A DNA stretch of 64,000 bases, taken from positions 2,542,001 through 2,606,000 of the forward strand of contig NZ_CP040755.1 of NCBI RefSeq assembly GCF_024585285.1, read 5' to 3'. The position numbers were made by a program, and so were the translations under genes. Under the pieces are notes generated by a model. The model did no database searches and had not been told where the DNA came from. It saw nothing but the letters and a program-made list of their open reading frames with translations. Below are positions 6,311-64,000 of the stretch, one piece after another. The stretch is from Colwellia sp. M166 (GTDB taxonomy: Bacteria; Pseudomonadota; Gammaproteobacteria; Enterobacterales; Alteromonadaceae). Positions within the stretch are counted from its first letter, which is position 1. The number at the start of each line of letters is the position of its first letter.

Positions 6311-6442
6311 CGCTTAGCTAAGTTATTGTTTTCTCTTGTTTTTAGTATCATATATTGATAATTATCATACCTCTGCCTTGACCCTAAACAACTAAATCCG
6401 TTACTGTTGCTGTAGTTATCTTTATGAAAGTACAGTAAATTT

Positions 6443-6892
6443 ATGGTTAATGTTGATGTAATGCAAATGGTTGCCGCGGCGCCAAATGAAATCAGTAAGC
6501 TATTACTCGATCATCAGCAATTGCATCGTTTTTTTGATGCAAAATTTGCTGTTGCAAAAACGGCTGATGATGGAGAGCCCGCTGGTGGCAAAGGGGCAAT
6601 TCGTAATGTTAGTGTTGCTGGAGTGAAATTTTCAGAACAAGTATTGTTTACTAGCTCAAATCAAATACGTTATGCCATTGTCGGAGATAAACCATTAAGC
6701 AACCACCAAGGCAATATTTACCTGACGGCGCAAACCCCAACACAAACTTCTGTACGTTATACTATTGTTTGCAATGGACCTAAATGGTTACCAGAAAAAT
6801 GGGTCGAATTTTTCTTGGCACAAGCAATGAAAAAAGCTTTAGTTAAGATCAATCAATATTTTTTATTGCATAAAAATAGGCGAACCGTGTGA
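6443..6892 (+). CDS. SRPBCC-superfamily protein
   Basis: A 149-residue START/SRPBCC-like protein: MVNVDVMQMVAAAPNEISKL is the first strand-helix unit, a polyketide-cyclase-like central sheet follows, and a long C-terminal helix (AQAMKKALVKINQYF) caps the cavity. Such proteins bind hydrophobic ligands; the ligand here is unknown. Its TGA overlaps the GTG start of glpK by four bases (GTGA), which indicates translational coupling and co-transcription with glycerol kinase. Confidence 0.75.
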   Translation: MVNVDVMQMVAAAPNEISKLLLDHQQLHRFFDAKFAVAKTADDGEPAGGKGAIRNVSVAGVKFSEQVLFTSSNQIRYAIVGDKPLSNHQGNIYLTAQTPTQTSVRYTIVCNGPKWLPEKWVEFFLAQAMKKALVKINQYFLLHKNRRTV

Positions 6893-36396: not shown

Positions 36397-38109
36397 ATGA
36401 AGTATGAACAGTTGGTAGAGTTTTCACTAAAAGCAGATGACCTGCTGCTATCAGGTGATTTAGTAAAACTGCAAGTCTACGTAGATGAGCACGAAGCACA
36501 TGAGTACCAGTTCGATTCAGCACTTTATGAAGCTCAATACTATTACGCATTGGCTAATTGTTATTCTGCCTTATATCACCCTCGAACGTCCAAGTGGTAC
36601 TCACAAGAGATGGTAAAAGTAGCTGTTTGCTATCGAAAAGCATTAGCAGTGATAAACAGCGTTGAGGCTTCACCTAATACCATAAGGTTAAAATCAATGA
36701 TCTGTACAAACTTAGCCAATCACCTTTCTTCACAAGGGCGAGCATTATGTTGTATTGAACTTTATGATGAAGCAATACGATTAGACAATAATCCGGTTGC
36801 CTACGTTGCAAAGGCTCGAAATGAACTGTTTATAGCAGATTCTATCTATGACTCAGGACATAGAGAATATCATTACTATACTGCTGCGAAACTGTTAGAA
36901 GAACTCAAACCTTTTGAGGAGTTGCTTGAACCAGAACAGCGTATCCCAATTGATGAGGGTGGACGGCTTCATCATTTTAGAAGCTGGTATCACGAAAATT
37001 ATGAAAATGATTCATTTAACTATTTTGATGAATTTAAAGAGCAATTTGAATCTGACAGACAGAAGAAATACTTATCATGGTGTGCTGATAATCGGCTATT
37101 TATCAACGATTTAAATGATGTATGTAAGTCTGAGATAGTTTATCAAGATGTACTTGGTTTATCTTCATTTACTCAACGCTTCAATGATTTACTCAGTGAA
37201 ACTGATGAACTGACTTATCACGGAAACTACGATGAGATTAAAAATGATTACTGTTATGCGAGATACTTAATGTATCAAGCAATGTCTATTGAAAATGATG
37301 AAATTCATTACTCTAACAAGACCTTTCAGCACGTAGATACTCGTTGTGGTGCGATTGATAATTTGAAAGTCAGTCATTTGAAATCTGCATTCAAAATCCT
37401 ATATTCTCTTTTCGATAAAATTGCTTATTTCATTCACCGCTTCTTTGATCTGAATGACATATCAAAAGACAATAAGATCTACATTGATAAGCTATTCCAA
37501 AAGCTCAATGGTAAAAGTTGGAAGCCAAACGAGAAGTTGGAAGGTGGTCAAAACCACTTCATCAATGCTCTTTTCTTTATCCTACAAGAATTGAGAGATG
37601 TAAAAGGGTTTGAATCAGTCTCAAAATGGATTAATCCGAGTGCTGAAAAATTTAGCGAAATTAGAAACGCTATGGAACATCGCTCTTTGGTTGTTGTTGA
37701 CGCAGAGTCATACCACTTGATAACTAACTTCGATATCGTAAATAAGCTATCAACTGAGCGCTTCAATAGTGGTTATTCAGAACTGGAAACCAAGTTAGAC
37801 GAAATAAACCAGAAAATTGCAAACGCTCGAAGGTCGAAAAACAAGGATTTAGAACAAAAAAATAGGGCTAAGCAAAAAAAGCTTGAAGATGAACTTGCGG
37901 GCTTAAACTCTCAACGATATGAAAAACAAAAGCTTTCTTCTCATACACTTCATATAACGGTTGATGACCTTGAAGTTCGACTATTTTCATTAATAAAGTT
38001 AGTCAGAAACTCCATAATGTATCTATCATTGGCAATCAATTTAGATTCAGAGATGAAAAAGGAACATCAAGAAGGTATCGCTTTACTTCGTGATATACCT
38101 TTGAGATAA
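36397..38109 (+). CDS. LA2681-type HEPN domain protein with TPR-like N-terminus
   Basis: The 570-residue protein starts with TPR-like helix pairs (about 1-180: AQYYYALANCYSALYH; LYDEAIRLDNNPVAYVAKAR). Its middle and C-terminal part resembles the LA2681 family of HEPN domains. The HEPN ribonuclease signature R-x4-H is present as RNAMEH at about 423-428 (SEIRNAMEHRSL). A charged coiled coil follows (about 465-505), and a final helical unit ends the protein. HEPN proteins often cut RNA in defence or toxin settings; here activity is inferred from the motif. It stands alone on the plus strand with an AAGGG box. Confidence 0.8.
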   Translation: MKYEQLVEFSLKADDLLLSGDLVKLQVYVDEHEAHEYQFDSALYEAQYYYALANCYSALYHPRTSKWYSQEMVKVAVCYRKALAVINSVEASPNTIRLKSMICTNLANHLSSQGRALCCIELYDEAIRLDNNPVAYVAKARNELFIADSIYDSGHREYHYYTAAKLLEELKPFEELLEPEQRIPIDEGGRLHHFRSWYHENYENDSFNYFDEFKEQFESDRQKKYLSWCADNRLFINDLNDVCKSEIVYQDVLGLSSFTQRFNDLLSETDELTYHGNYDEIKNDYCYARYLMYQAMSIENDEIHYSNKTFQHVDTRCGAIDNLKVSHLKSAFKILYSLFDKIAYFIHRFFDLNDISKDNKIYIDKLFQKLNGKSWKPNEKLEGGQNHFINALFFILQELRDVKGFESVSKWINPSAEKFSEIRNAMEHRSLVVVDAESYHLITNFDIVNKLSTERFNSGYSELETKLDEINQKIANARRSKNKDLEQKNRAKQKKLEDELAGLNSQRYEKQKLSSHTLHITVDDLEVRLFSLIKLVRNSIMYLSLAINLDSEMKKEHQEGIALLRDIPLR

Positions 38110-49561: not shown

Positions 49562-50278
49562 ATGTCCTACATCGATGAAAGCCAAGCCAAAGGGCTTGTT
49601 AAACGCATATTTAGAAGCTTATATGCAGCAGCAAACAATAGTGCACCTCAAAACTTTGAATACTCTCAAAGAAAAATTTGTAAAAAAATAAAGGGGTTGT
49701 GTAAAGAAAAAACCAACGCTGTATTGATTGCTGAGCGATTCAACAATACGAATAAATGGCAGTTAATATGGGGTGAATGGTGTTTATTTAGCGCAAAGAA
49801 AAAATTATTTGCAAGTACTAGTGATGTTGAAGAATATGACCAAATTGCATTTGATTTAACCATCAATGTTAGAGGTGGGGTTAGCTATAAATCATTTTAT
49901 GTTGTTTTATCTAAGCACGCCTTAGTTAGGTTGATTATGAGGAGCCAGCATCAATTAAAGAATGCTCATGACTTAAACTTATACCTTAAAAGAATCACTA
50001 AACCTCTTGTGTTTTCAGCATTAGAATTATCTGACCAACACACTAAAAGTAACGGTAAAATAAGCCAGTACAGCACTATTATTGATGATGTTTTTTTACC
50101 TTTAGCGCTAGATGTTGGCATAAATAGCCAGGGCTTATTAGCTAAAACCTGTACGATTAAAACATTTATGCCAGCCCATTATGATGGTGCTGCCGCTGAA
50201 TTATCTAGAAGAACCCCCATAATTACAAAGTCTGACTTTTTTGATTATGAAGGTAATTTTGGCATTTTAAGAGCGTGA
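49562..50278 (+). CDS. Hypothetical protein, 238 residues
   Basis: The product is unrecognised: soluble, basic at its N-terminus, with a core reading YKSFYVVLSKHALVRLIMRS and a section of polar turns. An AGGAG box precedes the ATG by 6 bases. It follows the FGE-domain gene by 62 bases in the same direction, so the two probably form a unit. No membrane helix, signal or catalytic motif is visible. Confidence 0.6.
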   Translation: MSYIDESQAKGLVKRIFRSLYAAANNSAPQNFEYSQRKICKKIKGLCKEKTNAVLIAERFNNTNKWQLIWGEWCLFSAKKKLFASTSDVEEYDQIAFDLTINVRGGVSYKSFYVVLSKHALVRLIMRSQHQLKNAHDLNLYLKRITKPLVFSALELSDQHTKSNGKISQYSTIIDDVFLPLALDVGINSQGLLAKTCTIKTFMPAHYDGAAAELSRRTPIITKSDFFDYEGNFGILRA

Positions 50279-50332
50279 CATTATTAACAACACTTCAACC
50301 CTATAGAGTTAAGCCCTAGTCGAAGTTAACTA

Positions 50333-50379
50333 TAAACGGTAATCAATGACCCTAACTTGAGCTAATCGGTTACCGTTTA
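50333..50379 (+). terminator. Candidate terminator or inverted repeat
   Basis: TAAACGGTAA (50333-50342) and TTACCGTTTA (50370-50379) are perfect 10-bp inverted repeats with a 27-base loop, 54 bases after the 238-residue gene. The large loop and weak T tract make the terminator role uncertain. Confidence 0.35.
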
Positions 50380-50458
50380 ATTCCTTAGCTACTAACAACA
50401 AAAATAATTGCTATTTCATTATGATATGAGATAAATGTACAATTAAGATTAAGCGTTA

Positions 50459-50738
50459 TTGAAACTAAAATGGAATTGTAATTTGAAAGACAAGGAAAAA
50501 ATCGCATTATTCATTGATGCGGATAATGCCCCAGCCGCTAAAATAGATATTATCCTCTCAGAGCTTGCTCGCTATGGCGTAGTAAACATTCGTAAAGCAT
50601 ACGGTAACTGGAAAAGTCCTAACCTAAAATTATGGCTTCAAAAAGTTAAGTGAGTTCTTTGCATCAATAGACTTATTCGAAATGAAAAAAACTAACGGCT
50701 CAATATTTTGGGTTAGAGATAAGAAGCGAGCCAAATAG
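50459..50738 (+). pseudogene. Remnant of an NYN-domain protein
   Basis: The first part is the start of an NYN (PIN-like) nuclease domain: IALFIDADNAPAAKIDIILS, then YGVVNIRKAYGNWK. It stops at 50651-50653. In the next frame the C-terminal end of the same kind of protein follows (FFASIDLFEMKKTNGSIFWV to a stop at 50736-50738). Most of the middle, well over 100 residues in homologues, is missing. This is an internal deletion, not a simple frameshift. The gene is dead. Confidence 0.7.
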
Positions 50739-50870
50739 CGAACGAAACTAAATAGAATGCTCAACAACCTCAAACATAATGGTTTTAATAAGCCTATGTT
50801 ACACTGCTAATTGGTTTTAAATATTCTTCTCACTATTTTCATACTATTGTTACAAAAATACAGGTAAATC

Positions 50871-51521
50871 ATGGTTCAACAACATCAACAAGAATTACAA
50901 AAACAGCTTTGGAACATCGCCAATGCCTTACGTGGCAATATGTCAGCTGATGACTTTCGTGACTATATTCTTGGGCTTATTTTCTACAAATACTTATCAG
51001 ACAAATTAAACCGTTACTGTGACGTATTATTAGCAGAAGACGGTATTACATTTGCTCAAGCAACTGACGACGAAGCACTTATCAACGATTTACGCGAAGA
51101 GTGTATTGAAAACCTTGGTTACTTTATTGCCCCTAACCAATTATTTTCCAGCCTAGCCAAACGTGGTGAAAAGCAAGAATTTATACTTGATGAGCTAAGC
51201 CGTGTACTTAACGACATTGAACAATCAACCACAGCGGCAGACTCTGCCGATGATTTTAATGGCTTGTTTGAAGAGTTAGATCTTAACTCAAGCAAACTAG
51301 GTAAAAACCCTGATGCGCGCAATAAACTTATTAGCCAAGTATTAGTGCATTTAGAGAATATTGATTTTCAATTAGAAAACTCAGAAATTGATTTACTCGG
51401 TGATGCCTACGAATACCTTATTGGGCAGTTTGCCTCTGGCGCGGGTAAAAAAGCCGGTGAGTTTTATATAATGTCACCTTCATTTTTTACTAACGAATGC
51501 CACCTTCCAACAGCAGCATAA
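50871..51521 (+). pseudogene. Truncated type I methyltransferase subunit (second hsdM)
   Basis: The frame is the N-terminal helical domain of an HsdM subunit (QKQLWNIANALRGNMSADDF; YLIGQFASGAGKKAGEFY). It breaks exactly at the GEFYTP box that should lead into the SAM-binding domain, then runs 15 unrelated residues to a stop. The catalytic motifs DPCxGSG and NPPF are absent. It is on the opposite strand from, and of a different lineage than, the complete hsdM at 60513-62033. It is a relic of an older R-M locus at the junction with the new operon. Confidence 0.82.
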
Positions 51522-51525
51522 AGTG

Positions 51526-51987
51526 TTACCACTCAATAGGTGTTAAAGTCGATTTTAAATAAAGTGGATGAGCTGGTTCACCTGATTTATTGACTTTCAA
51601 TACGTTTAATTCTGGAATCAAGGCTCGAACATGTTTAGAGCGATTCAAAAACATACCATCATTTCCCCAAGCCCCAACAATTACTCCCGCATTTTTGGCA
51701 AGTAGGATCAGTGTCTCATCATTTTTATTACCGATTGGATCAGATGCTCTTTTCATGTCTTCAGGCTGAGTAGCTCGATAGGCAAAAAGGTTGGTCATAC
51801 ATAAGCCACCATAGCCCCATGTTTTAGCGAAATTAATACAGCGACGAATAGTAGGATCGTCTTCAGTTTCATCTGCTGTTGATGGATTAAGTCCTATGAA
51901 CATCGCATAGGGTTTCGACTCGTCCCAAATACGCCAAAGTTCATAACGATAAGTTCTACAATCGGATAGTTTTGCTGTTTTCTTCAT
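51526..51987 (-). CDS. DUF1643 family protein
   Basis: A protein of 153 residues (from the ATG at 51987) with the DUF1643 pattern: MFIGLNPSTADETEDDPTIR, then WGYGGLCMTNLFAYRATQP and GNDGMFLNRS. The family is common near restriction systems and phages, but its activity is unknown. The start lies one base after the stop of the zinc-ribbon gene. A longer version from TTG at 52008 would overlap that gene. It is the last gene of the minus-strand type I operon and abuts the truncated hsdM. Confidence 0.8.
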   Translation of the reverse strand: MKKTAKLSDCRTYRYELWRIWDESKPYAMFIGLNPSTADETEDDPTIRRCINFAKTWGYGGLCMTNLFAYRATQPEDMKRASDPIGNKNDETLILLAKNAGVIVGAWGNDGMFLNRSKHVRALIPELNVLKVNKSGEPAHPLYLKSTLTPIEW

Positions 51988-51988
51988 A

Positions 51989-52162
51989 TCAATCATCCAC
52001 AACTTCAATCGTTACATGTTGGGCACCAAAGTACGTACCTTCATCCACTTCATAGCGCAAGGTTTCATCGCAGTGTGGGCAATCAAAGGTTTCATTAGGC
52101 TCAATGCATTCATCTTCTAGCCAATCCCAGCCAATATACTTTTCACAAGTTGGGCATTTCAT
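51989..52162 (-). CDS. 57-residue zinc-ribbon protein
   Basis: An ATG at 52162 opens a 57-residue frame with two cysteine pairs, CPTC at the N-terminus and CPHC at about 31-34, a typical zinc ribbon, in an otherwise acidic chain (WDWLEDECIEPNETFD). It begins 10 bases after the peptidase gene and ends one base before the DUF1643 start, so it is embedded in the operon. Function unknown. Confidence 0.7.
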   Translation of the reverse strand: MKCPTCEKYIGWDWLEDECIEPNETFDCPHCDETLRYEVDEGTYFGAQHVTIEVVDD

Positions 52163-52172
52163 TCAGCAGTCC

Positions 52173-53002
52173 TTATTCATTCAAATACATCTCCGCCATG
52201 TCATCTAATTTGGCTTTTACTTCTTTCCAGTTTGGCATTACTTGGGTTAATAAGCGCCAGAAGCGCTCGCTGTGATTGTGTTCGGCAATGTGGCAAAGCT
52301 CATGTAAAATCACGTAATCAATGCATTCTTTCTGTGCTTTAACGAGGTGAGGGTTGAGCATCAAGTTGCCTTTAGTTGAGCAGCTTCCCCATTGCTTTTT
52401 CATTGCCATTACACGAAATGAAGGAATACCTGTTACCCAAGTCGCTTTCGGAAGAAGCTCGGCTAGTCGCTCATGAAAAATTGCTTTTGCTTTATGTTGA
52501 TACCATTTGTCGATTAGCGGCTTAACCTTCACCAACCGATCATCAGTATCTTTGCTTATTTCATACTTGAGTGTGACGTTCAATTTGCCACGGCTTAGCT
52601 TTTTACGTTAGGTACTTGCTCGGCATCAACAATTACCTTGAGTACATAGCGCTTGCCTAGATAAAACTGAGTTTCACCGCTCACATAGCGCTTAGGTAAA
52701 ACCGTGTCTTTTTGCTTAGCAAAGTCATTAATACTTTGCCATATCCATCTTGCACGCTTGTGCATGGCATCAACAATAGCATCATCACTAGCATCATGAG
52801 GCACAGTAGCTACAACACGTTGATCAGGATGAACCTTGATAATGACCTTGCGTGCTGTTTTTTTAGCGTTATCAGCAGGCTTGGTTTTACGAATAACATC
52901 ATAGTGAATGGTGTCGTTACCATAGGTAAAAACACCTCGTTCACTGGTTGTTGTTCTGCTTTCTTTTGGGCAAATAGCGGCAGCAACGGCTTGTCTAGTC
53001 AC
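52173..53002 (-). pseudogene. M48/YgjP-like zinc metallopeptidase, frameshifted
   Basis: Read across one frameshift the product is a YgjP-type DUF45 protein of about 276 residues. The N-terminal part (HPDQRVVATVPHDASDDAIV) and the C-terminal zinc site HELCHIAEHNHSERFW, preceded by MAMKKQWGSCSTKGNL, are both good. A run of five T (52600-52604, plus strand) in place of six breaks it. Proteins of this kind commonly follow hsdR in type I loci. It starts 16 bases after the hsdR stop. Confidence 0.78.
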
Positions 53003-53018
53003 GCTTGTTAGCCCCTTG

Positions 53019-56000
53019 CTAAGCTTCTAAGCGAGTGACTTTAAGCACTTCTTCAATCAGTTTTTGTGCGTTATCAAGGCCAAGCTCAGTAAACAGTATG
53101 GGTAATAATTTCATGTGAATGGCGTTTTCAATTTCTGCTGGATTAATTGAATACTCAGCAACCGCGTCATTTACGACGGCATCAATATCAAAAGCAAGCG
53201 CTACCAATTTCTCATTATCCAGTGCCTTTTCAGTTAAAAATGCACTATCGAATAAATGTTTGAACAGGCCAAAATAGGCTTGGGCATGTTTGTTTAACTT
53301 GCCTGCGTCATCCATAAAGTCATTGGGAACATCAGCCACTTTGCGCTCTTTCACTTCCTGCTCAAAATCAGCGAACAATATGTACTGCTTAACAGGTGCA
53401 TCAAACATTGCTTTGGCATCTTCAATCGCCTTTTTAAGCATCTTAGAGAAATACTCTTGAGCATAAGGATCATCAGCTAAGTCTTGCTCAATCATCTTAG
53501 TGATTCGGCCAGTGATTTTATCTGTTTGGTTACGCGCTTCGTCATCGCTCATATCCTGTGGTTTAACGTCTTTGCCCAAGTTACCGACTAAATACGCACC
53601 GTCTGGCTCTTTAACTTCAATACCAGCAATGTGCTTGTCTAAAAGGCTACGAATATCTTCAGCGTATTCATCATAGTTAATGGTTTCGTCGGCATCTTCA
53701 CGTACTTGCTTACGTAAATCGACAAAGGCTTTTAAGTCTCGTTTGTATAGGTCGCGCTTGTTATCAAACGACTTATCTTCAAAGTAGGTGGCTGATTGCA
53801 GCGCTACTTTCATACAGTTTGAAAATGCCGTGAGTATTGAGTAAAAATCATCACGCTTTTTAAGGTTGGTGTCGGTAAGCTTACCACCAACCTCATGTAC
53901 TTTTGGTGCTAATGCTTGGCGTAAAGCGGGGCCATCTTGTTTGTTTTTAACACCATCGAATATCGCCCATAAATCGCTGTGTAACCCCGGAAGCTTTTTG
54001 TATTCCGTATCCATTCGGTTATATAAACCTTTTAGGTCATCTATATCAAAACCGCCTTGAGTGCGCTCAGCAAGGTCTTGGTACTTTTCTATGGTGGTAT
54101 CAAGTTCTTTTTAAAATGCCTCGGTAGTCAATCAGGTAACCAAACTGCTTTTTGCTATGTAATCGGTTAACACGGGCAATTGCTTGTATTAGGTTGTGCT
54201 CTTTCAGAGGCTTATCAATATAAAGCACAGTGTTCTTTGGCTCGTCAAAGCCCGTTAGCAGTTTATCAACCACTATCATGATGTCAGGGCCGTCATCTCT
54301 ACCAAAGTCTTCAATAATGGCTTTGGTGTAGGCTTTTTCGTCCATTTTATCAACATTGGCTTTCCACCAATTTTGCACAATGTCTTTGCTTTCTTGATCA
54401 ACTACATCATGCCCCTCACGTGTGTCAGGAGCCGACATTGCCACAACTGATGTCACGGTACCAATTTTATCTAAAGCCTCTTTATAACGTATTGCAGAGG
54501 CTTTAGAGTCACAAGCTAACTGACCTTTTAAACCTTGATGCTTAAAGTTTTGAAAATGGTCGGCAATATCATAGGCAATCAACATAATGCGATCGGCAGT
54601 TTGATATATTTGACCTTTTTGTGAAAACTTTCTTTTTAAATCAGTTTTTTGTTTGTCGCTCAGCTTACTGGTACTGCGATCAAACCATGCATCAATCGCC
54701 TTATCGTTAACGTTTAGCTCAGGAATACGTTCCTCATACAGCAATGGGGTCACGGTTTTATCTTCAACCGCTTGCTGCATAGTGTAAGAGTGAATGATCT
54801 TACCGAACTTGTTTGCAGTCTTGTCGTCTTTTAATAGCGGCGTACCTGTAAAGGCGATAAAAGCAGCTTTAGGCAGGGTTTGCTGCATACGGATATTATT
54901 TTCACCGTTTTGGCTGCGGTGACCTTCATCCACTAATACAATTATATTCGGGCTGTCGTTGTAGCAGTCTTTGTATTTTTATGGCAGAGCCAAACTTATT
55001 AATGATCGAGAAAATAACCCGTTCGTTACCTTGACCAATTTGCTCGGCCAAACGCTTACCTGTGGTCGCCATCGCATCTTTTTTATCGCGGTCGGTCAGT
55101 ACACCACCAGATGCAAACGTACGGCTTAGCTGGTCTTCTAAATCAACGCGGTCAGTCACAATAATTACGCGGCACTGCGCTAGCTCTTCAAGCCATATAA
55201 GCGCCTTAGATAAAAACACCATAGTAAACGACTTACCACTACCTGTGGTGTGCCAAATAACGCCGCCTTGACGTGCGCCAGCGCCGCGAGCGGAAGAAGA
55301 GTCATCAAACGTATTAATTCGTTCAATAAGTGCTTTTATACCAAACACCTGCTGGTATCGAGCTACAATCTTGCCTGCTTTTTTATCAAACAAAGTAAAC
55401 AGGCGGGTCATATCCAGTAGGCGTTCAGGGCGTAATAAACTTACAATCAGCCTATCTTGGTCGGTTACTGTCAGCTCACCCGCAGCAACAAGTGAAAGGT
55501 AATCTGTTTTATCTTTTGCAGGGCGATGATTAAACAGTGCATTTAATTGTTCATTGCTTAATTTATGATTTTTTTAACCTGACAAATTCCGCTTCGGCTA
55601 TTCCTAAGTGAGAGTGTTCTTCTTTCCACTTTGCCCAAAACTTCTCAGGGGTGCCGCACGTTGCATACAAGCCCTCATGCCCGTTTATGGCCAATAATAA
55701 CTGGCTGTAGGCATATAAGTGCGGTATTTCATCTTGCTTTTGGTTACGAATATGCTGAGAGATTGCTGCAAAGTTGGTCGATTTACCCTCTTTGTTTGAA
55801 TCCGGGCGTTTTGCCTCAATCACCACTAATGGTAAACCATTCACAAAACACACAATGTCTGGTCTACGGTTACCTGTGCCCTCGGCATTTTGTACTACTA
55901 ATTCTTCGGTACAATGAAACGCATTTTTATCAATATTATGCCAATCAATCAGCTTAATAGTGGGTGAGGCTTTTTTACCATCAATAAATTCAGTAACACT

Positions 56001-56337
56001 CACGCCATACATTAGGGCATTGTAAATTTTCTCATTAGCCGCTTTTAACCCAAGGTTCATGGCAGGGTTCAGCTCATGCATTACCTTATCAATGGCCGCT
56101 TCTGATAGTGTATGTTGCTTACCTGCAAACGAAAATGTCTGTTTGGCTAAAAAGGCACGCATTACAGGTAACAACACCACCTGATGCGTGCTCTTTTTTT
56201 CGCTGGCAAGCGTGTTGCCACGTAGCGCTTCGCATTCGCTGGGGGGGAATGAAGGTGTAACCTAAGTTGGTTAACAGCGACAGCGCAGGTATTTTTGCGC
56301 TGAATTCTTCTTGAAATTTAGGTGTGTATTGCGTCAT
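53019..56337 (-). pseudogene. hsdR: Type I restriction subunit R, four frameshifts
   Basis: The whole HsdR is present in order, about 1105 residues when joined. The pieces are the N-terminal nuclease (RPDIVCFVNG...VIEAKRP), helicase motif I HTTGSGKSFTM, the DEGHRSQNG box, motif VI QAIARVNRLH and a helical C-terminal domain. Single extra bases in homopolymers break it at 56241-56247 (seven G), 55569-55575 (seven T), 54976-54980 (five T) and 54108-54112 (five T). No translated HsdR could cut DNA in this form. It lies 43 bases after the RT-nitrilase gene in the operon. Confidence 0.88.
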
Positions 56338-56380
56338 TTGTTATCTCTCTTCAACCCCTGATACCCGAGGTGTAGTAAGT

Positions 56381-59323
56381 TCATCGGCTGAGTACCGAGT
56401 CGCTGTCATAACCTGGGGGGAGGTGTTTAAAATAATCCTTTGAGCCTGGTTTTGATTTGTATTGAAAATCTCTAAGCTCCTTTATGTCGAGTTTTGTAGT
56501 CAGGACACAAGAGTTGTCACCACCTTTAACATAAAGCATCGTCTTACTCTCGGTTTTGGTTGGTCTCAATACGCAAGACCCTCCGTATTGCGAGGTATTT
56601 GCTTGAACTGTGTAGCAATGCAGATCCCGGACAGCGGACTCCAGAATATGTTGATAGTAATTTGTGTCTTTATTCCAGACGCATGCAAATAGAAGATCGA
56701 TCTGTGATTTAAATAAAACCCGGTGTGTGATGTCTGATAATTCGAAGCAGTTGTATGACGCAAATGACAAACCACGCCATGATACTTTGTGGTAATAGGC
56801 ATTTTGCTTGAGTACAAGATTGCCAGGCTTAAGCCTTACTGCTTCTAAAAGCCCTAGTTCGGCAGGGGCATAATGATTTTTTACGCGAGCCGTCATCACA
56901 CAGGACTTGTACTTGCCAGACACTCTAAATGGCAGCGCTTCTATGATCAAATTGTATGCGACACCATTCGATACCCAGTGTTCAAGTCCGAAAACAAGAC
57001 CAATTTGATGTCTACGTGAAAATGACACCATAAACGGAAGCCAACTTACAGGTATGGCAACTTCAGGCATCACCAATAGATCAGCTTTCTCATAAAGAGC
57101 CGAATTCAAGATGCTATAAAGATCTTCCTGGCGTTTAAAGCTAAGGTTCGGCTGTCGATCTCGACGCACAGCACTGCTGATATCCTCTTCGTTTACTCGA
57201 AGATTTGCTATTGCCAAGTTAATCTGGTCTTTAGAATCCTTGTCAGAAACCAATAGGCTGGACTTAGCAATCCCTCCGGTGCCTGCATCATCAGTTGTAA
57301 AGTCAACAGGAAATTCATTCCCGAAGAATCGATACTTATAGGCATCTATGGTCTCTGCTAGCCAACCATTCAAATCGTTCTCGGTGGCGAGATATTTTCC
57401 CAAATGAAAGATCTGCCATTCGTCGAAGTGTATGAATCGTGGAGAAAAAGCAATTTTGGTTTCATCTAACTCGACATCCTCATTGCTTGTGAAATCGCTT
57501 TCAGATGTCAGGTCGGACTCTTCAAGAGAATAATTTGCAAGGGGCCAGGCAACGAGGTGATGACGAATAAGGTTAGAGCACCGAAACTGCCATGAAAAGG
57601 AGTGCAAATCAGATGCATAGCTGACTAATTTATTTAATTCAGGGTTTGTGCCGTGAAACACGCTCTCATCTTCAATGAAAAGAATGTCGATATGAGAAGG
57701 AAAGGCTTTTATATCCAAAAGTCCGATCGTAATTGCCAACGCAATCTGGTTGTATAAATTCAGGTCTTCGTTTAGCTTTTTGGTAAACCGATCGGAAGGC
57801 CTCCTAGAGTTCGGCATAATGCCAATAATCTTGTTTATTTCGGCTTCAACATACTGATAGAAGAAAGAAGCAAATCCGTAATTTCTGGTGATTACCGAGT
57901 ATTGATACAGCTTTTCCCATAAACGGAAAAATTGAAGTGCGTTCTGCCCCTTAAAAAATTGCTTCAGTTGTGGAAGAACCACATCTCTATTGTTTAGTTT
58001 GCAAAGTCGATGAGCCGTTATATGGCTGGATAGATACTTTGCCAGTTCTGTCTCATTTTCAGCAAGTCCGACAATGCTGCGTAACTTATTGGCAGACCCA
58101 TCATAGAGTACATCGTATGCAAATCTGTCGAGTTCTTTATCAATATGATCGCTTGGCAAAAATTTGAATGCGCTGCTTCTTTCATCAAGTTCTTGCTTAA
58201 AGGCTTCCAGCCCGGCGCGGCTATGCTCCTTATCAAAGAACTGCAATATGAGCTTATCCTGTTGCATTGGCAACGTATTGTCAGCAACTGATATTACATA
58301 TTCGGCATTATCGCCGGTTGCTGTGAGCACAGAACTTAAATAATGATTTACAAATGATGGTATTGGGTTTTCTACATCAAACTTAGGACGCTTGAAGACC
58401 ATTATAATGTCATCGACATAGCGGCCATAATAGGCTGGCCTAACATCATCACCAATAGAATAATCAAATTCTGAAAGATACCAGTTGGCGATGATGGATG
58501 CTGACGCCATGCCGATAGGCAAACACTTTTTATCTTTGCACTTAACATGAGTTTGCTTGATTCTAGGTGCAATAACTTGCTGGTAACGACTGTATATTGC
58601 TTCCAACACAAGGTTGAGTTTTAGTGCAAGTTCCGCGAGTTGGGCGTTGTCTGAATAATGATTTTGAATTTCAGCTTCGATGTTTTCAAAATCTAGATCC
58701 ACATGATAAAAGTACGACTTCAAATCAAGCGATAAAAGTGCCACATCATCGCCATTCTTAGAGATTTGAGTTGCAACCTCTAAGGCCTGATCGCGCCATT
58801 GGTTGTATTGATCAATATATCGCTTGAAGACCTCTTGGCCGGAAAGGTCATTATCTTTTGAAAAGTTAAGAGCCGAGGAGTGCATCCGATTACCGTAGCT
58901 GTCTTTGCTCATGTCTTCCTCAAGAGCAGAGCCAACAAACAGACACCACAGCATTTCAATGATATGGATTTCTACCGGAGCATTGATGAAGTAGTTAACT
59001 TTGGAAACCTGATATTGCTCAGAATCACGGACATTACTAATGAATAACCCTGTATTCTGGCTTGGTTTGTCTTCGTTGCGCTCTACAAGCTTTGGTAGCA
59101 AGTGGTAGTTAATACTTTTCAGCCAATCCTTGAAATACTTGTGGTTAGAAGGGTTTTCTTGATCAACGACCTCTATTATGGATTCAAACACCTCGTCCAA
59201 TTCAGTGTGGCTAGTCTCGAACTCTGCCACACGTTGCTTAAGAAACAGATTAAGGTTCTCATGGTATGCGTAGCTTTTAACGAAGAGGTACGCTTTCCTA
59301 ATCTGATCAATATTCAAATCCAT
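56381..59323 (-). CDS. Reverse transcriptase-nitrilase fusion, DRT type 1 (UG1)-like
   Basis: The 980-residue protein has an N-terminal reverse transcriptase: motif A LLSLDLKSYFYHVDL (D200), motif B CLPIGMASASIIANWYLS, and the catalytic YVDD at 302-305. A long helical middle (about 390-690) leads to a C-terminal nitrilase-like domain (about 695-960) with E754 (VMPEVAIP), K815 (ARVKNHYAP) and C859 (SYNCFELSD), the Glu-Lys-Cys triad. RT-nitrilase fusions of the unknown/defence RT group (UG1, DRT type 1) protect against phage. It lies inside the type I operon, 12 bases after hsdS and 43 before hsdR, and is uninterrupted. Confidence 0.88.
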   Translation of the reverse strand: MDLNIDQIRKAYLFVKSYAYHENLNLFLKQRVAEFETSHTELDEVFESIIEVVDQENPSNHKYFKDWLKSINYHLLPKLVERNEDKPSQNTGLFISNVRDSEQYQVSKVNYFINAPVEIHIIEMLWCLFVGSALEEDMSKDSYGNRMHSSALNFSKDNDLSGQEVFKRYIDQYNQWRDQALEVATQISKNGDDVALLSLDLKSYFYHVDLDFENIEAEIQNHYSDNAQLAELALKLNLVLEAIYSRYQQVIAPRIKQTHVKCKDKKCLPIGMASASIIANWYLSEFDYSIGDDVRPAYYGRYVDDIIMVFKRPKFDVENPIPSFVNHYLSSVLTATGDNAEYVISVADNTLPMQQDKLILQFFDKEHSRAGLEAFKQELDERSSAFKFLPSDHIDKELDRFAYDVLYDGSANKLRSIVGLAENETELAKYLSSHITAHRLCKLNNRDVVLPQLKQFFKGQNALQFFRLWEKLYQYSVITRNYGFASFFYQYVEAEINKIIGIMPNSRRPSDRFTKKLNEDLNLYNQIALAITIGLLDIKAFPSHIDILFIEDESVFHGTNPELNKLVSYASDLHSFSWQFRCSNLIRHHLVAWPLANYSLEESDLTSESDFTSNEDVELDETKIAFSPRFIHFDEWQIFHLGKYLATENDLNGWLAETIDAYKYRFFGNEFPVDFTTDDAGTGGIAKSSLLVSDKDSKDQINLAIANLRVNEEDISSAVRRDRQPNLSFKRQEDLYSILNSALYEKADLLVMPEVAIPVSWLPFMVSFSRRHQIGLVFGLEHWVSNGVAYNLIIEALPFRVSGKYKSCVMTARVKNHYAPAELGLLEAVRLKPGNLVLKQNAYYHKVSWRGLSFASYNCFELSDITHRVLFKSQIDLLFACVWNKDTNYYQHILESAVRDLHCYTVQANTSQYGGSCVLRPTKTESKTMLYVKGGDNSCVLTTKLDIKELRDFQYKSKPGSKDYFKHLPPGYDSDSVLSR

Positions 59324-59335
59324 AAATAGCCCTCC

Positions 59336-60523
59336 TTACACCAAAACCCGTCGCTTACCCGTCAACAACTGCTGCATCAGCGCTTTTTTCTCTTGCTTTA
59401 AGGCATCGAGCTTTTGTTGCAAAGCAGAGATTTCCTGATCGGCAGTTGAAAGCACGGCAGCGATTTTTTGTTGTTCTTCATAGCAGGGATAGTGAACAAT
59501 GGTCGTCCTTAAGTCTGTCGAACTAATATTCAACTGGGCTGCACCAGCAGCTTTGTCGAGTATCGACTGCTGGATCTTATCGGATAGATACAAATACGTA
59601 ACAAACAGTTGCACAGCGCATTCTTTGGCCAGTATTCGCCCGACACGTTGATTAAGAAAACACGGAAGATCTCGTTCTTTTACCCAGCCATAATTACTCA
59701 AACTGCCAGACATTCCGAATACGAAGTCACCGGTTTTCAACTTGAATCTATCAAGACCAATAGTGCTCTCTGGAATAACTTTAGCTGCACTGGAAATATC
59801 TATACCTCCAGCTTTAAAGTCACTCATTCGAATAATAGGGATACCCTTATCTGAGTCGGTAAAATCATTACTCTTGAACGCATAGCCAGAATCAATATTG
59901 GCAATATCGCTCAGCTTTCCTTTTTTCCACTCCCCACTAAACCTAACCCCATTCTCATCAAGTAGGCGCTTTTTGCCTGTGAGCAGTTGTTGCATTAGGG
60001 CTTTTTTCTGCTGTTTACTGTTGTCGATTAGGCGCTCGGTGGTGCTAATCGCTTTATCCCAAGTAGATAGGATTTTGGCGATTTTGCGTTGTTCGTTGTG
60101 AGGAGGAACCATTATTGGAGTATTAAGCACATCCTCCCTTGAAATGCCCGGAATTAAACCTGCGGCAGCTCCTTCATACCTTCTTATACTTGCAACCAAG
60201 TTGTAGAAACAAAACTTTGGGTCAAATGAAGTTGACCTGATCGCCATTAATTGGCGACTAATTGCATAAGCAGCATCAGCCTCAATTACTTTACCTGTTC
60301 CTGAACCTTTTACAGTTATTAGCAAATCGCCTTTGCAACATTCCTTTTTAGCATTCTCCGTATACTTGGTAACTACTATTTTTCCACTGGGAAAGTCTGC
60401 GGGGCCAGTTAAATACGGCTTTCCATTACCAACTGTGTTTACAAATTTAGCTTCTACATGTTGACCCGAAATCAATTCAATTCCGTCTGAAAACACCCCC
60501 AAGTTCCATCCATTAGGCACCAT
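59336..60523 (-). CDS. hsdS: Type I restriction specificity subunit S
   Basis: A 395-residue two-domain specificity subunit. Each target-recognition domain is followed by a coiled-coil spacer, and both spacers end in the same motif, KKALMQQLLTGK (about 182-193 and 378-389). It directs the M2S or R2M2S complex to a bipartite DNA site; the site cannot be read from sequence. Its ATG overlaps the hsdM stop by 11 bases, so M and S are coupled. The RT-nitrilase gene begins 12 bases after it. Confidence 0.93.
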   Translation of the reverse strand: MVPNGWNLGVFSDGIELISGQHVEAKFVNTVGNGKPYLTGPADFPSGKIVVTKYTENAKKECCKGDLLITVKGSGTGKVIEADAAYAISRQLMAIRSTSFDPKFCFYNLVASIRRYEGAAAGLIPGISREDVLNTPIMVPPHNEQRKIAKILSTWDKAISTTERLIDNSKQQKKALMQQLLTGKKRLLDENGVRFSGEWKKGKLSDIANIDSGYAFKSNDFTDSDKGIPIIRMSDFKAGGIDISSAAKVIPESTIGLDRFKLKTGDFVFGMSGSLSNYGWVKERDLPCFLNQRVGRILAKECAVQLFVTYLYLSDKIQQSILDKAAGAAQLNISSTDLRTTIVHYPCYEEQQKIAAVLSTADQEISALQQKLDALKQEKKALMQQLLTGKRRVLV

Positions 60524-62033
60524 AACCCAACTCCTTTAAATAGCCTTCCATCTCGAACTCAAGGGTTTGCAGCTCATTTTTTAGCTGTACACGTTCAGTG
60601 CGCACCGCTTCTAAATCAATCTCGGCTTCTTCTTCAAAGGTATCCACATAGCGTGGAATATTGAGGTTGAAGTCGTTTTCTTTAATTTCATCAAAGCTGG
60701 CTAGGTAAGAATATTTATCTGTGGTTTCTCGCGCCTTGTAGGTGTCGATAACCTTTTGAATATTCTCTGCGGTTAGCTGGTTTTGGTTTTTGCCTGATTT
60801 GAACTCACGGCTGGCATCGATAAACAGTACGTTTTTATCGGTTTTTTGCTTCTTAAAGATCAAGATAGCCGCTGGAATGCCGGTGCCGAAGAACAGCTTT
60901 TCGGGTAGGCCAATAACGGTGTCGAGCAAGTTTTCTTCAATGAGTTGTTGACGAATTTTACCCTCACTCGATGCTCTAAATAACACACCATGTGGCACCA
61001 CCACACCCATTCTTCCGCTTTCCGGTTTTAGCGTTTCAATCATGTGGCTGATAAACGCATAATCACCTTTGGTTTTTGGTGGTACACCACGGCGAAAACG
61101 CCCATAAGGGTCGCTGCTAGCATCGTCATGACCCCACTTATCGAGGCTGAACGGTGGGTTGGCTGTTACTACATCAAAGTGCAATAAGCCGTTGCCGTCT
61201 TTATCAAGTAGCAGTGGGTTACGAATAGTGTCGCCCCATTCAATACGGTGGTTGTCTTCACCATGAAGGAACATATTCATTTTGGCTAATGCCCAAGTTG
61301 AACCAATGGCTTCTTGTCCAAATAATGCGTATTTTTTTGAACCAGAGTTTTTACGTACCATAGCGCCACATTTTAATAGCAACGAGCCACTGCCCGTACA
61401 TGGGTCGCAGATTTGGTCGCCTTCAACTGGTTCTAAAATGGTTGCTAAAAGGGTTGAGACCTCAGGCGGGGTATAGTATTCACCAGCGGTCGCGCCACTG
61501 CCAGCGGCAAAGTGTTTAATCAGGTATTCATAGGCGTTACCGATAATATCTAAGCTGCCTACACGCTCTGTGCTTAGGTTTAAAATGTCTTTGCCAAAGT
61601 CTTCTAGTAAGTGGCGTAGTAAATCGTTCTTTTGTTTTTCTTGGCCTAGGCGGTCAGTGTTAAAGCTGATGTCTTGGAATACGTTTTTAAGCTTACTGCC
61701 GTTGGCTTCTTCGAGTGCGTGTAGGGCTTTATCAATACGCTCGCCGTTACCTGCTTCGTAGCGTTTTTCGTATAAATCCCAAAAGCTCGCGCCTTCTGGC
61801 AGCACAAAGCGCTGCTTCGACATCATGGCGTGTATTAGCTCTGGATTATCGCCATATTGAGTTACCAGTTTGTTGTATTCGTCTTTGTATACATCAGAGA
61901 TGTATTTTAAAAACAGCATGGTCAGGATGAAGTCTTTATAGGTATCGGCACTGATCACACCACGGAAGGTGTCGCAGGCGTTCCACACCGCTTTGTTAAT
62001 ATCGTCCTGATTGATTTGGTTGGTTGTGGTCAT
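60513..62033 (-). CDS. hsdM: Type I restriction methyltransferase subunit M
   Basis: A complete 506-residue N6-adenine methyltransferase. The N-terminal HsdM helical domain (DINKAVWNACDTFRGVISAD) is followed by GEYYTPPEVS, the SAM motif DPCTGSGSLLLK at about 213-224 and the catalytic NPPF at about 293-296. It methylates host DNA in the type I complex. It is open and normal in length, unlike hsdR. It follows the half-S gene by 53 bases and overlaps hsdS by 11. Confidence 0.95.
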   Translation of the reverse strand: MTTTNQINQDDINKAVWNACDTFRGVISADTYKDFILTMLFLKYISDVYKDEYNKLVTQYGDNPELIHAMMSKQRFVLPEGASFWDLYEKRYEAGNGERIDKALHALEEANGSKLKNVFQDISFNTDRLGQEKQKNDLLRHLLEDFGKDILNLSTERVGSLDIIGNAYEYLIKHFAAGSGATAGEYYTPPEVSTLLATILEPVEGDQICDPCTGSGSLLLKCGAMVRKNSGSKKYALFGQEAIGSTWALAKMNMFLHGEDNHRIEWGDTIRNPLLLDKDGNGLLHFDVVTANPPFSLDKWGHDDASSDPYGRFRRGVPPKTKGDYAFISHMIETLKPESGRMGVVVPHGVLFRASSEGKIRQQLIEENLLDTVIGLPEKLFFGTGIPAAILIFKKQKTDKNVLFIDASREFKSGKNQNQLTAENIQKVIDTYKARETTDKYSYLASFDEIKENDFNLNIPRYVDTFEEEAEIDLEAVRTERVQLKNELQTLEFEMEGYLKELGYGA

Positions 62034-62086
62034 ATTTTTTAGTCCTTGTTATTAATTTTTAAATCTGTTTTGTTTTAGGCTCTCTT

Positions 62087-62704
62087 TCAAACGCATGAGC
62101 TTTCAAGTGCGTGAATAGCAATGGCTTCTAGTTGTTGCTGTCTATTTTCAATCAGCTTTTTTAATACTTTTTGCTCTCTAACAGCGCAGCGGTGAATTGC
62201 AGCGAGTTGTTTTTGCTTCTCTAACTTAAGCACCTTAATGGGCACGTTCTCCAACACTTGCCTGCGAATACTTAGGTACATTGAACCTTCAGCAGTCGCT
62301 TTAAAATAACGCTGTGCTGGTTGTTGGTTAAGCTGCCAGCATAAGAAATCGGGCACGATCACATCTTTAAACTCAGGTTTTAAACGCACCATAAAAAAGT
62401 GTGGTGAGCAGACTGTGCGCTCTAATACCTGTTCTACTAATACGCTGTAATGTTTTGCCCCTTTAGCGACAAATAACACATCGCCATTTTGTAACCAGTC
62501 GGGTTGTTTTTTCGTCTTTAATACGGTTTCAACCATAGTGTATTGGTTGATTTCACCCGTTGGCTCGGTATCCCTTACTTGAACAACATTTACATCACCA
62601 TTGTCGTATTGCTTCACCGTGCCACGAAAAGGGTGGCCTAAGCGGATATCGGCAATATCACTCAGGCGCAGCTCTTCAGTAGCTTGGCGCATTTTTGCAT
62701 TCAT
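62087..62704 (-). CDS. Half-size specificity-like protein (single TRD)
   Basis: A 205-residue HsdS-like protein with one target-recognition domain (LSDIADIRLGHPFRGTVKQY; LSIRRQVLENVPIKVL) and one terminal coiled coil (about 155-195). It is the first gene of the operon, before hsdM. Type I loci usually carry one two-domain S; half-S proteins can pair to give a symmetric site or act as regulators. The ATG at 62704 has an AAGG box. Confidence 0.8.
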   Translation of the reverse strand: MNAKMRQATEELRLSDIADIRLGHPFRGTVKQYDNGDVNVVQVRDTEPTGEINQYTMVETVLKTKKQPDWLQNGDVLFVAKGAKHYSVLVEQVLERTVCSPHFFMVRLKPEFKDVIVPDFLCWQLNQQPAQRYFKATAEGSMYLSIRRQVLENVPIKVLKLEKQKQLAAIHRCAVREQKVLKKLIENRQQQLEAIAIHALESSCV

Positions 62705-62757
62705 GAACGTTAAACCTTGGTTGTGTTCAGCAAACCGATTTGCTCAAAAAGTAAATA

Positions 62758-62787
62758 AACGCCAATGGGGTATGACCAACTGGCGTT
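62758..62787 (-). terminator. Leader hairpin / attenuator of the type I operon
   Basis: On the minus strand AACGCCA and TGGCGTT (62781-62787 and 62758-62764) form a 7-bp stem with further partial pairing inside, followed by TATTTACTTTTT. It lies about 54 bases upstream of the first gene, so it may act as an attenuator or end transcription coming from outside. Confidence 0.45.
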
Positions 62788-62852
62788 ACAAAATCGGAAT
62801 TAATTTAATGAAAATTATTGTGGCTGACATTGTTGGCTAGGTCAATTTATTT

Positions 62853-62918
62853 TTGCAGTAATCAAATACTGCAATTTGTTGTTGACACCTTAAATGCTCA
62901 TGCGTATATTTTGCAGTA
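62853..62918 (+). promoter_or_regulatory. Strong promoter flanked by three TTGCAGTA boxes
   Basis: TTGACA (62882-62887) and TATATT (62905-62910) are 17 bases apart. TTGCAGTA (62853-62860) and its inverted copy TACTGCAA (62867-62874) lie just before the -35 box, and a third TTGCAGTA (62911-62918) directly follows the -10 box. Placement at both ends of the promoter is typical of repressor operators. The region is shared with the divergent type I operon. Confidence 0.65.
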
Positions 62919-62937
62919 TTGTAATGGAGCATTTAAT

Positions 62938-63108
62938 TTGAGTGGCAATTATCCCAAAGTTGTAAAACAAACTGTAAATTTAGGCAGCCTGCCTTACGTA
63001 TCGAATGTTGATGAGGAAGGTCAACGCACTGTTGCTTTTCATGAAGATCACATTGTTGAACGTTTCCCTAGAGGGGTTCTAGGGATTTTCCCCTCTAAAG
63101 TAACATAA
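62938..63108 (+). CDS. Small protein, 56 residues, behind the TTGCAGTA promoter
   Basis: Downstream of the promoter, GGAG (62926-62929) precedes a TTG start at 62938. The product begins SGNYPKVVKQTVNLGSLPYV and ends VERFPRGVLGIFPSKVT. No family was recognised. Translation upstream of the TTG would require reading through the promoter, so the shorter form is preferred. The last codons overlap two alternative hairpins at 63066-63097. It could be the regulator that binds the boxes, but this is only a guess. Confidence 0.45.
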   Translation: MSGNYPKVVKQTVNLGSLPYVSNVDEEGQRTVAFHEDHIVERFPRGVLGIFPSKVT

Positions 63109-63210
63109 ATCGCCATACTCACCATATTTAAAGGCATACAAAGGTGGGTTACTTCTCCAAAGTATGGCAAATTATGAGGTTAACAACCCCTTAAACTTAA
63201 TTTAATTCCT

Positions 63211-64000
63211 ATGGCTATAAAAAACGAACTATCAATTCTTACCAAAGCTGAGCAGCTTGATCTATATTCTCCGCCGCTATTATCACTTGAACAACAACGA
63301 TTGTATTTTACGCCAAACGAGATCGAGTTAACAGAGTTGAAAAGTATTCGCCTAAGGAACCACCGATGCTATTTCATTGCGTTATTAGGGTATTTTAAGT
63401 CTAAGCCTGTGATTCTTTCACCTAGCTTTAACCTCATCTTTGACGATATGCAGTTTATTTCAACGCAAGTTCAAGGAGGCAAAGGGATCAGGCCTTTCAG
63501 CATTAATAAGATGCAGCGTGACCGTATATATCAAAAGAATACTGAGGTTATTAAACTATCAGAAATGGGACGAAAGTCTGCACTTTGCGCCGCTGTACGA
63601 ACATCTTGTTATGGTCGGCAAAGCTTGGCTTGAGCCTCGTTATCTATTCGATGCAGCCGCTGAATATCTAGCAACGCATAGAATTGCCATCCCTAAATAT
63701 ACTGTCTTACAAAAGCTTATCAGTCGTGTTATCCAACAGGTCAAGAAGGCGTTAAATAATAAGCTTCGTATTCATGTTTCATCTGAACTACACGGATTTC
63801 TAAATACTATTATCGATGACAAAGATGGGCTCTCCTTAAGCCAGCTTCGAGCCGGTGCAAAAAGCGTTATGGTGACAGAGCTAAAAAAAAAGAACTGACG
63901 GTGTATCATCAGTTACAGCCTTATACAAGACAGATTGATAATGCTGTTAAGGGCTTAGCCTTATCGTCTAAAAACCAACAACACTTCGGTGAAATGGTGG
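63211..64000 (+). pseudogene. tnpA: Tn3-family transposase (DUF4158), frameshifted, cut by window edge
   Basis: The start (ILTKAEQLDLYSPPLLSLEQ) and a later segment (WLEPRYLFDAAAEYLATHRI, then PKYTVLQKLISRVI) are the N-terminal DUF4158 domain of Tn3-type transposases. The product is split into three frames by homopolymer changes at 63533-63536 (four A) and 63883-63891 (nine A). The catalytic DDE domain lies beyond the window. No Tn3-type terminal repeat could be picked out upstream of 63211. Confidence 0.72.

Follow-up and report, generated by a model that had tools for sequence, protein, structure and literature searches.

A UG5-nitrilase reverse transcriptase between hsdS and hsdR of a type I restriction-modification operon in Colwellia sp. 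M166: a probable autonomous effector in an exchangeable cassette

Background

The prrC gene lies between hsdS and hsdR, and in EcoprrI its product is an anticodon nuclease that the type I restriction-modification (RM) enzyme keeps silent. It is one of several precedents for cargo carried within such an operon (PMC3874165 and PMC12707154). The same position holds DarTG2 in the RRDM island of enteropathogenic Escherichia coli, where an M48 metallopeptidase gene follows hsdR (PMC12255303), as well as TgvAB in Vibrio pathogenicity island 2 (VPI-2) and RloF in Campylobacter; TgvAB still protects in combination with an HsdR nuclease mutant (PMC11411939). Here we describe a reverse transcriptase (RT) with a C-terminal nitrilase domain that occupies this position in Colwellia sp. 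M166 (assembly GCF_024585285.1), in a window of 64,000 nucleotides (contig NZ_CP040755.1, positions 2,542,001 to 2,606,000 of the forward strand) from whose first letter all coordinates of the operon are counted.

Fusions of an RT to a nitrilase are described in unknown classes 1 and 5 (PMC8934634). The same paper counts against full novelty of an RT-RM association, as one AbiK seems to be part of an RM system and an AbiA operon includes RM genes. Phage defence is described for DRT1, in which mutation of C1116 abolishes defence, and purified DRT1, DRT5S and DRT5L perform template-free, protein-primed DNA synthesis, DRT1 priming at S402, 77 residues past D325 and within an unresolved stretch (PMC13275509). 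From the wording of that paper on class 3, DRT5S and DRT5L are probably the small and large forms of UG5, and the UG5-nitrilase RTs of PADLOC (RT_UG5-nitrilase; class 3 UG/Abi) probably correspond to DRT5L. Among the matches listed in a literature search, no title or opening of an abstract describes an RT in the gap from hsdS to hsdR, and the term "reverse transcriptase" is absent from PMC12255303, PMC12707154 and PMC3874165.

Results and discussion

A UG5-nitrilase RT inside a type I RM operon

The gene under study encodes 980 residues, with an RT at the N-terminus and a nitrilase fold (residues ~696-976) at the C-terminus. We think it likely that this UG5-nitrilase RT, a class 3 DRT of the UG5-large type, is an autonomous effector carried as an exchangeable cassette in the slot between hsdS and hsdR; its family, catalytic residues, fold and slot, and the exchange of the cassette with its breakpoints, are established here by sequence comparison. 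The best profile was UG5-nitrilase PDLC02995 (937.8 bits, E 1.7e-282, residues 6-980 of 980), and Pfam reported RVT_1 only. A first-pass annotation, made from the letters of the window alone, had assigned the protein to UG1/DRT type 1; this identity is rejected, as the Drt1a/UG1 profiles gave only 108.3 and 49.4 bits. The same annotation's reading of an RT-nitrilase fusion, with YVDD at 302-305 and a C-terminal triad E754/K815/C859, was borne out. Across the alignment of 46 sequences, one of them the query, D200 and YVDD show no variation, nor do E754, K815, E822 and C859, the Glu-Lys-Glu-Cys set of the nitrilase fold. An origin among group II intron or diversity-generating retroelement RTs was also rejected, with neither GIIM nor Avd found in the RT and nine neighbouring proteins scanned and with UG5 as the best profile.

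The operon runs on the minus strand from 62704 to 52173 and is made up of the features below. Loci in other genomes carry handles where they have to be told apart: L003 is that of Photobacterium salinisoli, and L055 and L056 are related RM loci which, like L003, have an intact HsdR.

62087-62704, minus: half-size HsdS-like open reading frame (ORF), 205 aa, with a single target-recognition domain, opening the operon
60513-62033, minus: hsdM, type I DNA methyltransferase, 506 aa, open (N6_Mtase E 6.3e-104, HsdM_N E 2.7e-25)
59336-60523, minus: hsdS, specificity subunit, 395 aa, open (Methylase_S E 1e-35)
59321-59338, minus: overlap of hsdS stop, Shine-Dalgarno-like sequence and RT start, TAAGGAGG, 12-nt gap
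56381-59323, minus: UG5-nitrilase RT (class 3 DRT), 980 aa, without internal stop
56266-59479, minus: exchanged block of hsdS 3' end, RT and first ~70 bp of hsdR, 90.9% DNA identity to L003
53019-56337, minus: hsdR, restriction subunit, four frame changes, start codon at 56337 (tblastn, with Pfam and PADLOC on the pieces)
52173-53002, minus: YgjP-like metallopeptidase gene 3' of hsdR, PF01863, one frame change near 52604 (tblastn with L055/L003 homologues)

With hsdM, hsdS and hsdR all identified (M and S open, R broken), this is a type I RM operon. The first-pass annotation had placed an uninterrupted RT on the strand of the RM genes, between specificity and restriction subunits, 12 bases after the hsdS stop and 43 bases before the hsdR start codon, and in all of this it agrees with the sequence. 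Neither promoter-like nor terminator-like minus-strand sites were seen at either RT boundary, in a weak scan (18 promoter-like sites vs a shuffle mean of 23.0). The intergenic room beside the RT (12 and 43 nt) leaves little space for a non-coding RNA template, and Rfam, searched for such a template across 50000-64000, gave 0 families at gathering score. The TAAGGAG at the hsdS-RT junction is retained in L003 and in an Alteromonadales metagenome-assembled genome (MAG; L011), and an Ornatilinea MAG of the Chloroflexota (L013) has AGGAG with an 11-nt gap. An open YgjP-like homologue (236-274 aa) follows hsdR in L003, L011 and other relatives.

Compared with the described systems, the RT is like other UG5-nitrilase RTs in its full-length profile match, in its RT and nitrilase catalytic residues and in size, and differs from most of them by its seat between hsdS and hsdR. 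With DRT1 (UG1; PDB 9YFD) it shares the order of RT first and nitrilase last, C859 aligns with DRT1 C1116, and the RT block can be aligned to 9YFD (profile E 3e-27 over the whole chain), but similarity is low and the lengths are 980 vs 1229 aa. The alignment of UG5 with 9YFD stops at chain residue 374, before S402. S384 is invariant in 46/46 sequences and lies 79 residues past D305 in 22 of the 46 (77-127 overall), within the lowest-confidence block of the model (381-390, predicted local distance difference test score 57); as a parallel to S402 it is a lead only. A search for DRT1 relatives, made for a comparison of priming serines, gave 0 in 274 genomes, but its control was silent too. The 50 matches listed by Foldseek and VIA-align were all nitrilase-superfamily chains, and we draw no inference from 9YFD not being among the matches listed. 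Like prrC, the RT gene would be of the cell-suicide type and sits within a type I operon; unlike PrrC, its product belongs to another protein family, no PF13166 domain being found in it, and nothing indicates a comparable dependence on the RM enzyme. The RRDM island resembles this operon in having a defence gene in the hsdS-hsdR gap and a metallopeptidase gene (M48 vs YgjP-like) downstream of hsdR. What sets this operon apart from those with DarTG2, TgvAB and RloF is that the cargo is an RT and that its exchange can be read from incongruent trees and mapped breakpoints.

Exchange of the cassette between RM backbones

The RTs of the window and L003 are 92% identical in amino acid sequence, with a proportion of synonymous differences (pS) of 0.26 and a ratio of nonsynonymous to synonymous substitution rates (dN/dS) of 0.13. 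Their HsdM proteins are only 75% identical (pS 0.78), and HsdS and the half-size HsdS reach 39% and 41%. At the DNA level, blastn delimits a block of 90.9% identity over 3220 columns that takes in the last ~143 bp of hsdS, the RT and the first ~70 bp of hsdR. The transitions are sharp: the second variable part of hsdS (59954-59455) has 30-59% identity to L003 per 100 bases, and 90-92% is reached from 59454 on; in the flanking 100-base windows identity is 36-58% overall, with 43-55% above 59504 and 36-53% from 56304 down.

The methyltransferase gives a different genealogy. HsdM of the window clusters with L055 and L056 (support 100/99), apart from L003, and a clade of window and L003 HsdM is rejected (182 log-likelihood units worse, p-AU of the approximately unbiased test 5.8e-49), this pair having been picked for the topology test after the identities were seen. 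Likewise, hsdR is 74% identical in DNA to L055 vs 62% to L003. The closest backbone seen is that of the Alteromonas mediterranea plasmid pAMCP48-600 (HsdM 93.1%), whose slot holds a GIY-YIG nuclease; the slot of L055 holds a KAP NTPase (PDC-S20) and that of L056 is empty. Judged from these alignments and trees, the RT cassette was swapped by recombination in conserved flanks.

The hsdS-hsdR slot as a site of cargo

From 88 HsdR places listed in other genomes of the class, 40 were fetched, and 33 could be evaluated (hsdS and hsdR on one strand) after seven without hsdS in the stretch (L052, L053, L062, L064, L066, L071 and L074) had been dropped. The slot was scored by script as occupied when at least one same-strand ORF of at least 100 aa, not overlapped by a longer ORF, lay between hsdS and hsdR. 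By this count 26 of 33 slots are occupied: 7/10 where HsdR is at least 40% identical to that of L003, and 19/23 among the more distant ones. Cargo domains were examined in all seven occupied close relatives and in 11 of the 19 occupied distant ones, mostly one ORF each. The close group carries DUF4917 with AbiD, DUF559 with Fic, KAP, RhuM, DUF3800, an AAA_21 ATPase, and an OLD-like protein with DUF3800, and the same RM family occurs on plasmids with other cargo, e.g. on the conjugative pAQU1. One distant slot (L075) encodes a PF13166 protein (PDC-S06), PF13166 (AAA_13) being what we take to be the PrrC family. Further RTs are present in two others, an AbiP2 RT (L073, 5711-7273, 676.9 bits) and a DRT4 RT (L087, 6341-7924, 704.3 bits), each with a 4-nt overlap with hsdS. 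RTs of three lineages thus occupy the slot, UG5-nitrilase, AbiP2 and DRT4 having been found there. Related operons hold differing cargo at the same place, with exchange between backbones, and the operon seems to serve as a docking site for exchangeable defence cassettes and not as one fused machine. In relatives a second cargo position lies between hsdM and hsdS, with RhuM in L054, L060, L061 and L063 and a SoFic-like protein in L056.

Distribution and settings of UG5-nitrilase RTs

Six peptide patterns searched in 84,980 species genomes recovered 17 loci besides the window, which is a lower bound. The first-pass annotation had proposed a survey of gene order, and the hsdS-RT-hsdR arrangement proved to be recurrent and not unique, being present in 3 of the 17: L003, L011 and L013, with RTs 91% (in the best segment), 73% and 33% identical to that of the window. 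In L008 the RT sits 29 nt after hsdR, and L007, on a contig of 4.1 kb, offers too little sequence for its RM context to be judged. The remaining 12, including the broken copy L019, have no hsdM, hsdS or hsdR within the available stretch, as searched pairwise and then with profiles. Among the neighbours at other RT loci are a Cap15-like protein, a Schlafen/Fic-like protein, an OLD-UvrD pair and a RecQ that adjoins a type III-like restriction gene, as would be expected for a mobile defence gene.

The RM proteins of L013 are distant from those of the other loci (HsdM 34-36%, HsdR 28-32%). In a quick RT tree of 33 rows (the window, 16 of the 17 loci, L019 being omitted, and 16 of 120 listed proteins), RM-less RT lineages fall between the window and L013, which has a long branch. 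Both observations suggest that the RT probably entered the slot at least twice; the alternative would be an old RT-RM association with repeated loss. Scans for frequency with PDLC02995 at E 1e-30, in overlapping samples, gave, besides the window's own genome, 0/16 genomes of the same genus, 0/294 of the order, 0/368 of the class and 0/397 of the phylum; the one hit in 245 other genomes of the family (G815) is taken to be L008 and adds no new locus. A phage origin of the RT is rejected: a tblastn search of 50,697 phage records gave nothing at E 1e-10, and none of the viral contigs carried any of the six RT peptide patterns.

Some individual settings may be recorded here. In Acinetobacter rudis (L004) a gene for a Cap15-like membrane protein (6439-7062) lies directly 3' of the UG5-nitrilase RT. 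In a Clostridia MAG (L016, 8102-13096) the UG5-nitrilase gene begins 48 nt after a RecQ helicase gene, beside the type III-like restriction gene. The E. coli plasmid pA16EC0305-2 (L093, 103-3312) encodes a divergent UG5-nitrilase RT of 1069 aa (PDLC03780, 1034 bits), annotated as hypothetical, with pinE and a tail fibre gene nearby and no RM genes annotated in the 8.3 kb seen.

The broken state of hsdR

Homology of hsdR to the intact HsdR proteins of L055, L056 and L003 (tblastn) falls into five segments, between which the reading frame changes four times (near 56247, 55575, 54980-54950 and 54112), and that of the ygjP-like gene into two segments with one frame change. The four long segments of hsdR have 0 in-frame stops in 1059 codons, and their ratio of nonsynonymous to synonymous differences (pN/pS) is that of purifying selection, similar to open relatives. 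On these data restriction was lost very recently, M, S and RT being preserved, or the breaks are in part or entirely indels of the assembly. The first-pass annotation held that a two-system operon would explain why hsdR can be lost; with a stop-free hsdR under purifying pN/pS, this is compatible with the data and goes no further. We regard it as possible, and hold the view tentatively, that the frame changes are assembly errors and that the operon is a complete RM system plus RT; this concerns hsdR only and agrees with the cassette reading of the RT. Each of the five frame changes coincides with or adjoins a homopolymer of 5-7 bases, which, like the absence of stops and the pN/pS values, favours errors. 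However, the genome's rpoB and rpoC are open, and among homopolymers of at least 5 bases there are 0 breaks in 33 runs of the half-size hsdS, hsdM, hsdS and RT vs 5 breaks in 30 runs of hsdR and ygjP.

Proposed mode of action and competing explanations

In the mechanism that we propose, the RT would be translated off the hsd transcript, probably by re-initiation at the ribosome-binding site that overlaps the stop codon of hsdS. The RT domain may, by analogy with DRT1, add untemplated DNA onto its own protein, an addition that could drive oligomerisation of the nitrilase; the nitrilase, triggered at a guess by a phage replication or recombination function, might then act on an essential amide or amine metabolite (the substrate is our guess) and bring about abortive infection. 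It would work beside restriction, catching phages that evade it, and not via the RM complex, although autonomy in this host is a guess. The cassette itself would pass from one related RM backbone to another through homologous recombination, with crossovers in the conserved hsdS 3' end and hsdR 5' end. Independence from RM is suggested by the exchange between backbones and by RM-less relatives, including the divergent one on the E. coli plasmid.

Several observations weigh against this account. The UG5 profile (976 positions) gives DRT1 just 98 bits, and S402 is said not to be conserved in other class 3 DRTs (PMC13275509), so that priming may differ in UG5. Some of the 12 RM-less loci are short on one side (L009, for instance, has 1.7 kb upstream, and L004 3.4 kb). 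Promoter-like sites in the window are not above shuffles, and single transcription is therefore not established. Finally, the hsdS-RT junction of 11-12 nt is found in three loci besides the window, on two distant RM backbones, and could for this reason reflect a functional link and not hitch-hiking.

In a PrrC-like alternative, the HsdM/S(/R) complex would hold the RT-nitrilase inactive and release it once disabled by a phage anti-restriction protein. The short junction in two RM families would fit, as would the embedding of the RT in a type I operon like that of prrC (PMC3874165 and PMC12707154), the recurrence of RTs in the slot (AbiP2 in L073, DRT4 in L087) and an hsdM and hsdS that are open while hsdR is broken. 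Yet the cassette is found in backbones whose HsdM and HsdS share 75% and 39% identity, 12 of 17 homologues are without type I RM genes, and the occupants of the slot belong to unrelated families, most of which therefore cannot share one RM contact. As the movement of the cassette between such backbones and the RM-less loci make gating by RM less likely, we consider control by the RM complex unlikely, and the first-pass suggestion that restriction gates the RT is not favoured. Its other suggestion, a layered defence, is plausible to the extent that two complementary systems share one operon, for which TgvAB, DarTG2 and PrrC are precedents. As a whole, the earlier interpretation is partly supported: it held for the RT-nitrilase fusion, its operon position and its recurrence, failed for the UG1/DRT1 identity, and is unlikely to hold for gating.

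We give slightly less credence still to two further readings. The slot might selectively recruit RNA-free, self-priming defence RTs as new RM guardians, whose untemplated synthesis would read out the state of HsdM/HsdS or be permitted by it; if so, which we think improbable, losing or blocking restriction would arm cell suicide. Alternatively, the RT might be in the slot solely since the slot recombines often, and be silent or beginning to decay together with hsdR and ygjP. The four frame changes of the former and the one of the latter, and the absence of the family from all 16 other genomes of the genus examined, are in line with passive carriage, but an RT open across 2943 bp with a dN/dS of 0.13 relative to L003, its catalytic residues kept and a Shine-Dalgarno-like site 5' of its start make this doubtful.

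RTs of three lineages can now be counted with the defence genes known from the hsdS-hsdR gap, and the breakpoints show how a slot cassette can be replaced around an unchanged methyltransferase backbone. Reading the slot of each type I operon may be a route to new defence genes, and with the slot RT it can be tested cleanly whether an embedded effector is under the control of the RM complex or has no more than a transcript in common with it.

Other genes of the operon, window and genome

The half-size HsdS-like ORF matches Methylase_S (PF01420) at 22.5 bits, barely above the cut-off of 22, and also PADLOC Specificity_I (PDLC03199, a 208-position model); alternative or competing specificity are candidate roles. 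Such an ORF stands 5' of hsdM also in L003, L051, L054-L061, L063 and L065, and is uncalled in L011. The window's own genome has a second RT of 343 aa at ~335708 (L001, 1231-2262; RT_UG4, 420.6 bits). A chemotaxis protein encoded in the window shares 90% identity with one of a Cognaticolwellia aestuarii MAG, which fits a probably marine host of Colwellia type. On the plus strand of the window, a PD-Lambda-1 defence protein (34583-36025, 597.6 bits) suggests a defence island. A 570-aa protein with a HEPN_LA2681 domain is encoded at 36397-38109 (plus), and a 216-aa protein at 50871-51521 (plus), which combines HsdM_N with the beginning of N6_Mtase, may be left over from a further type I RM locus.

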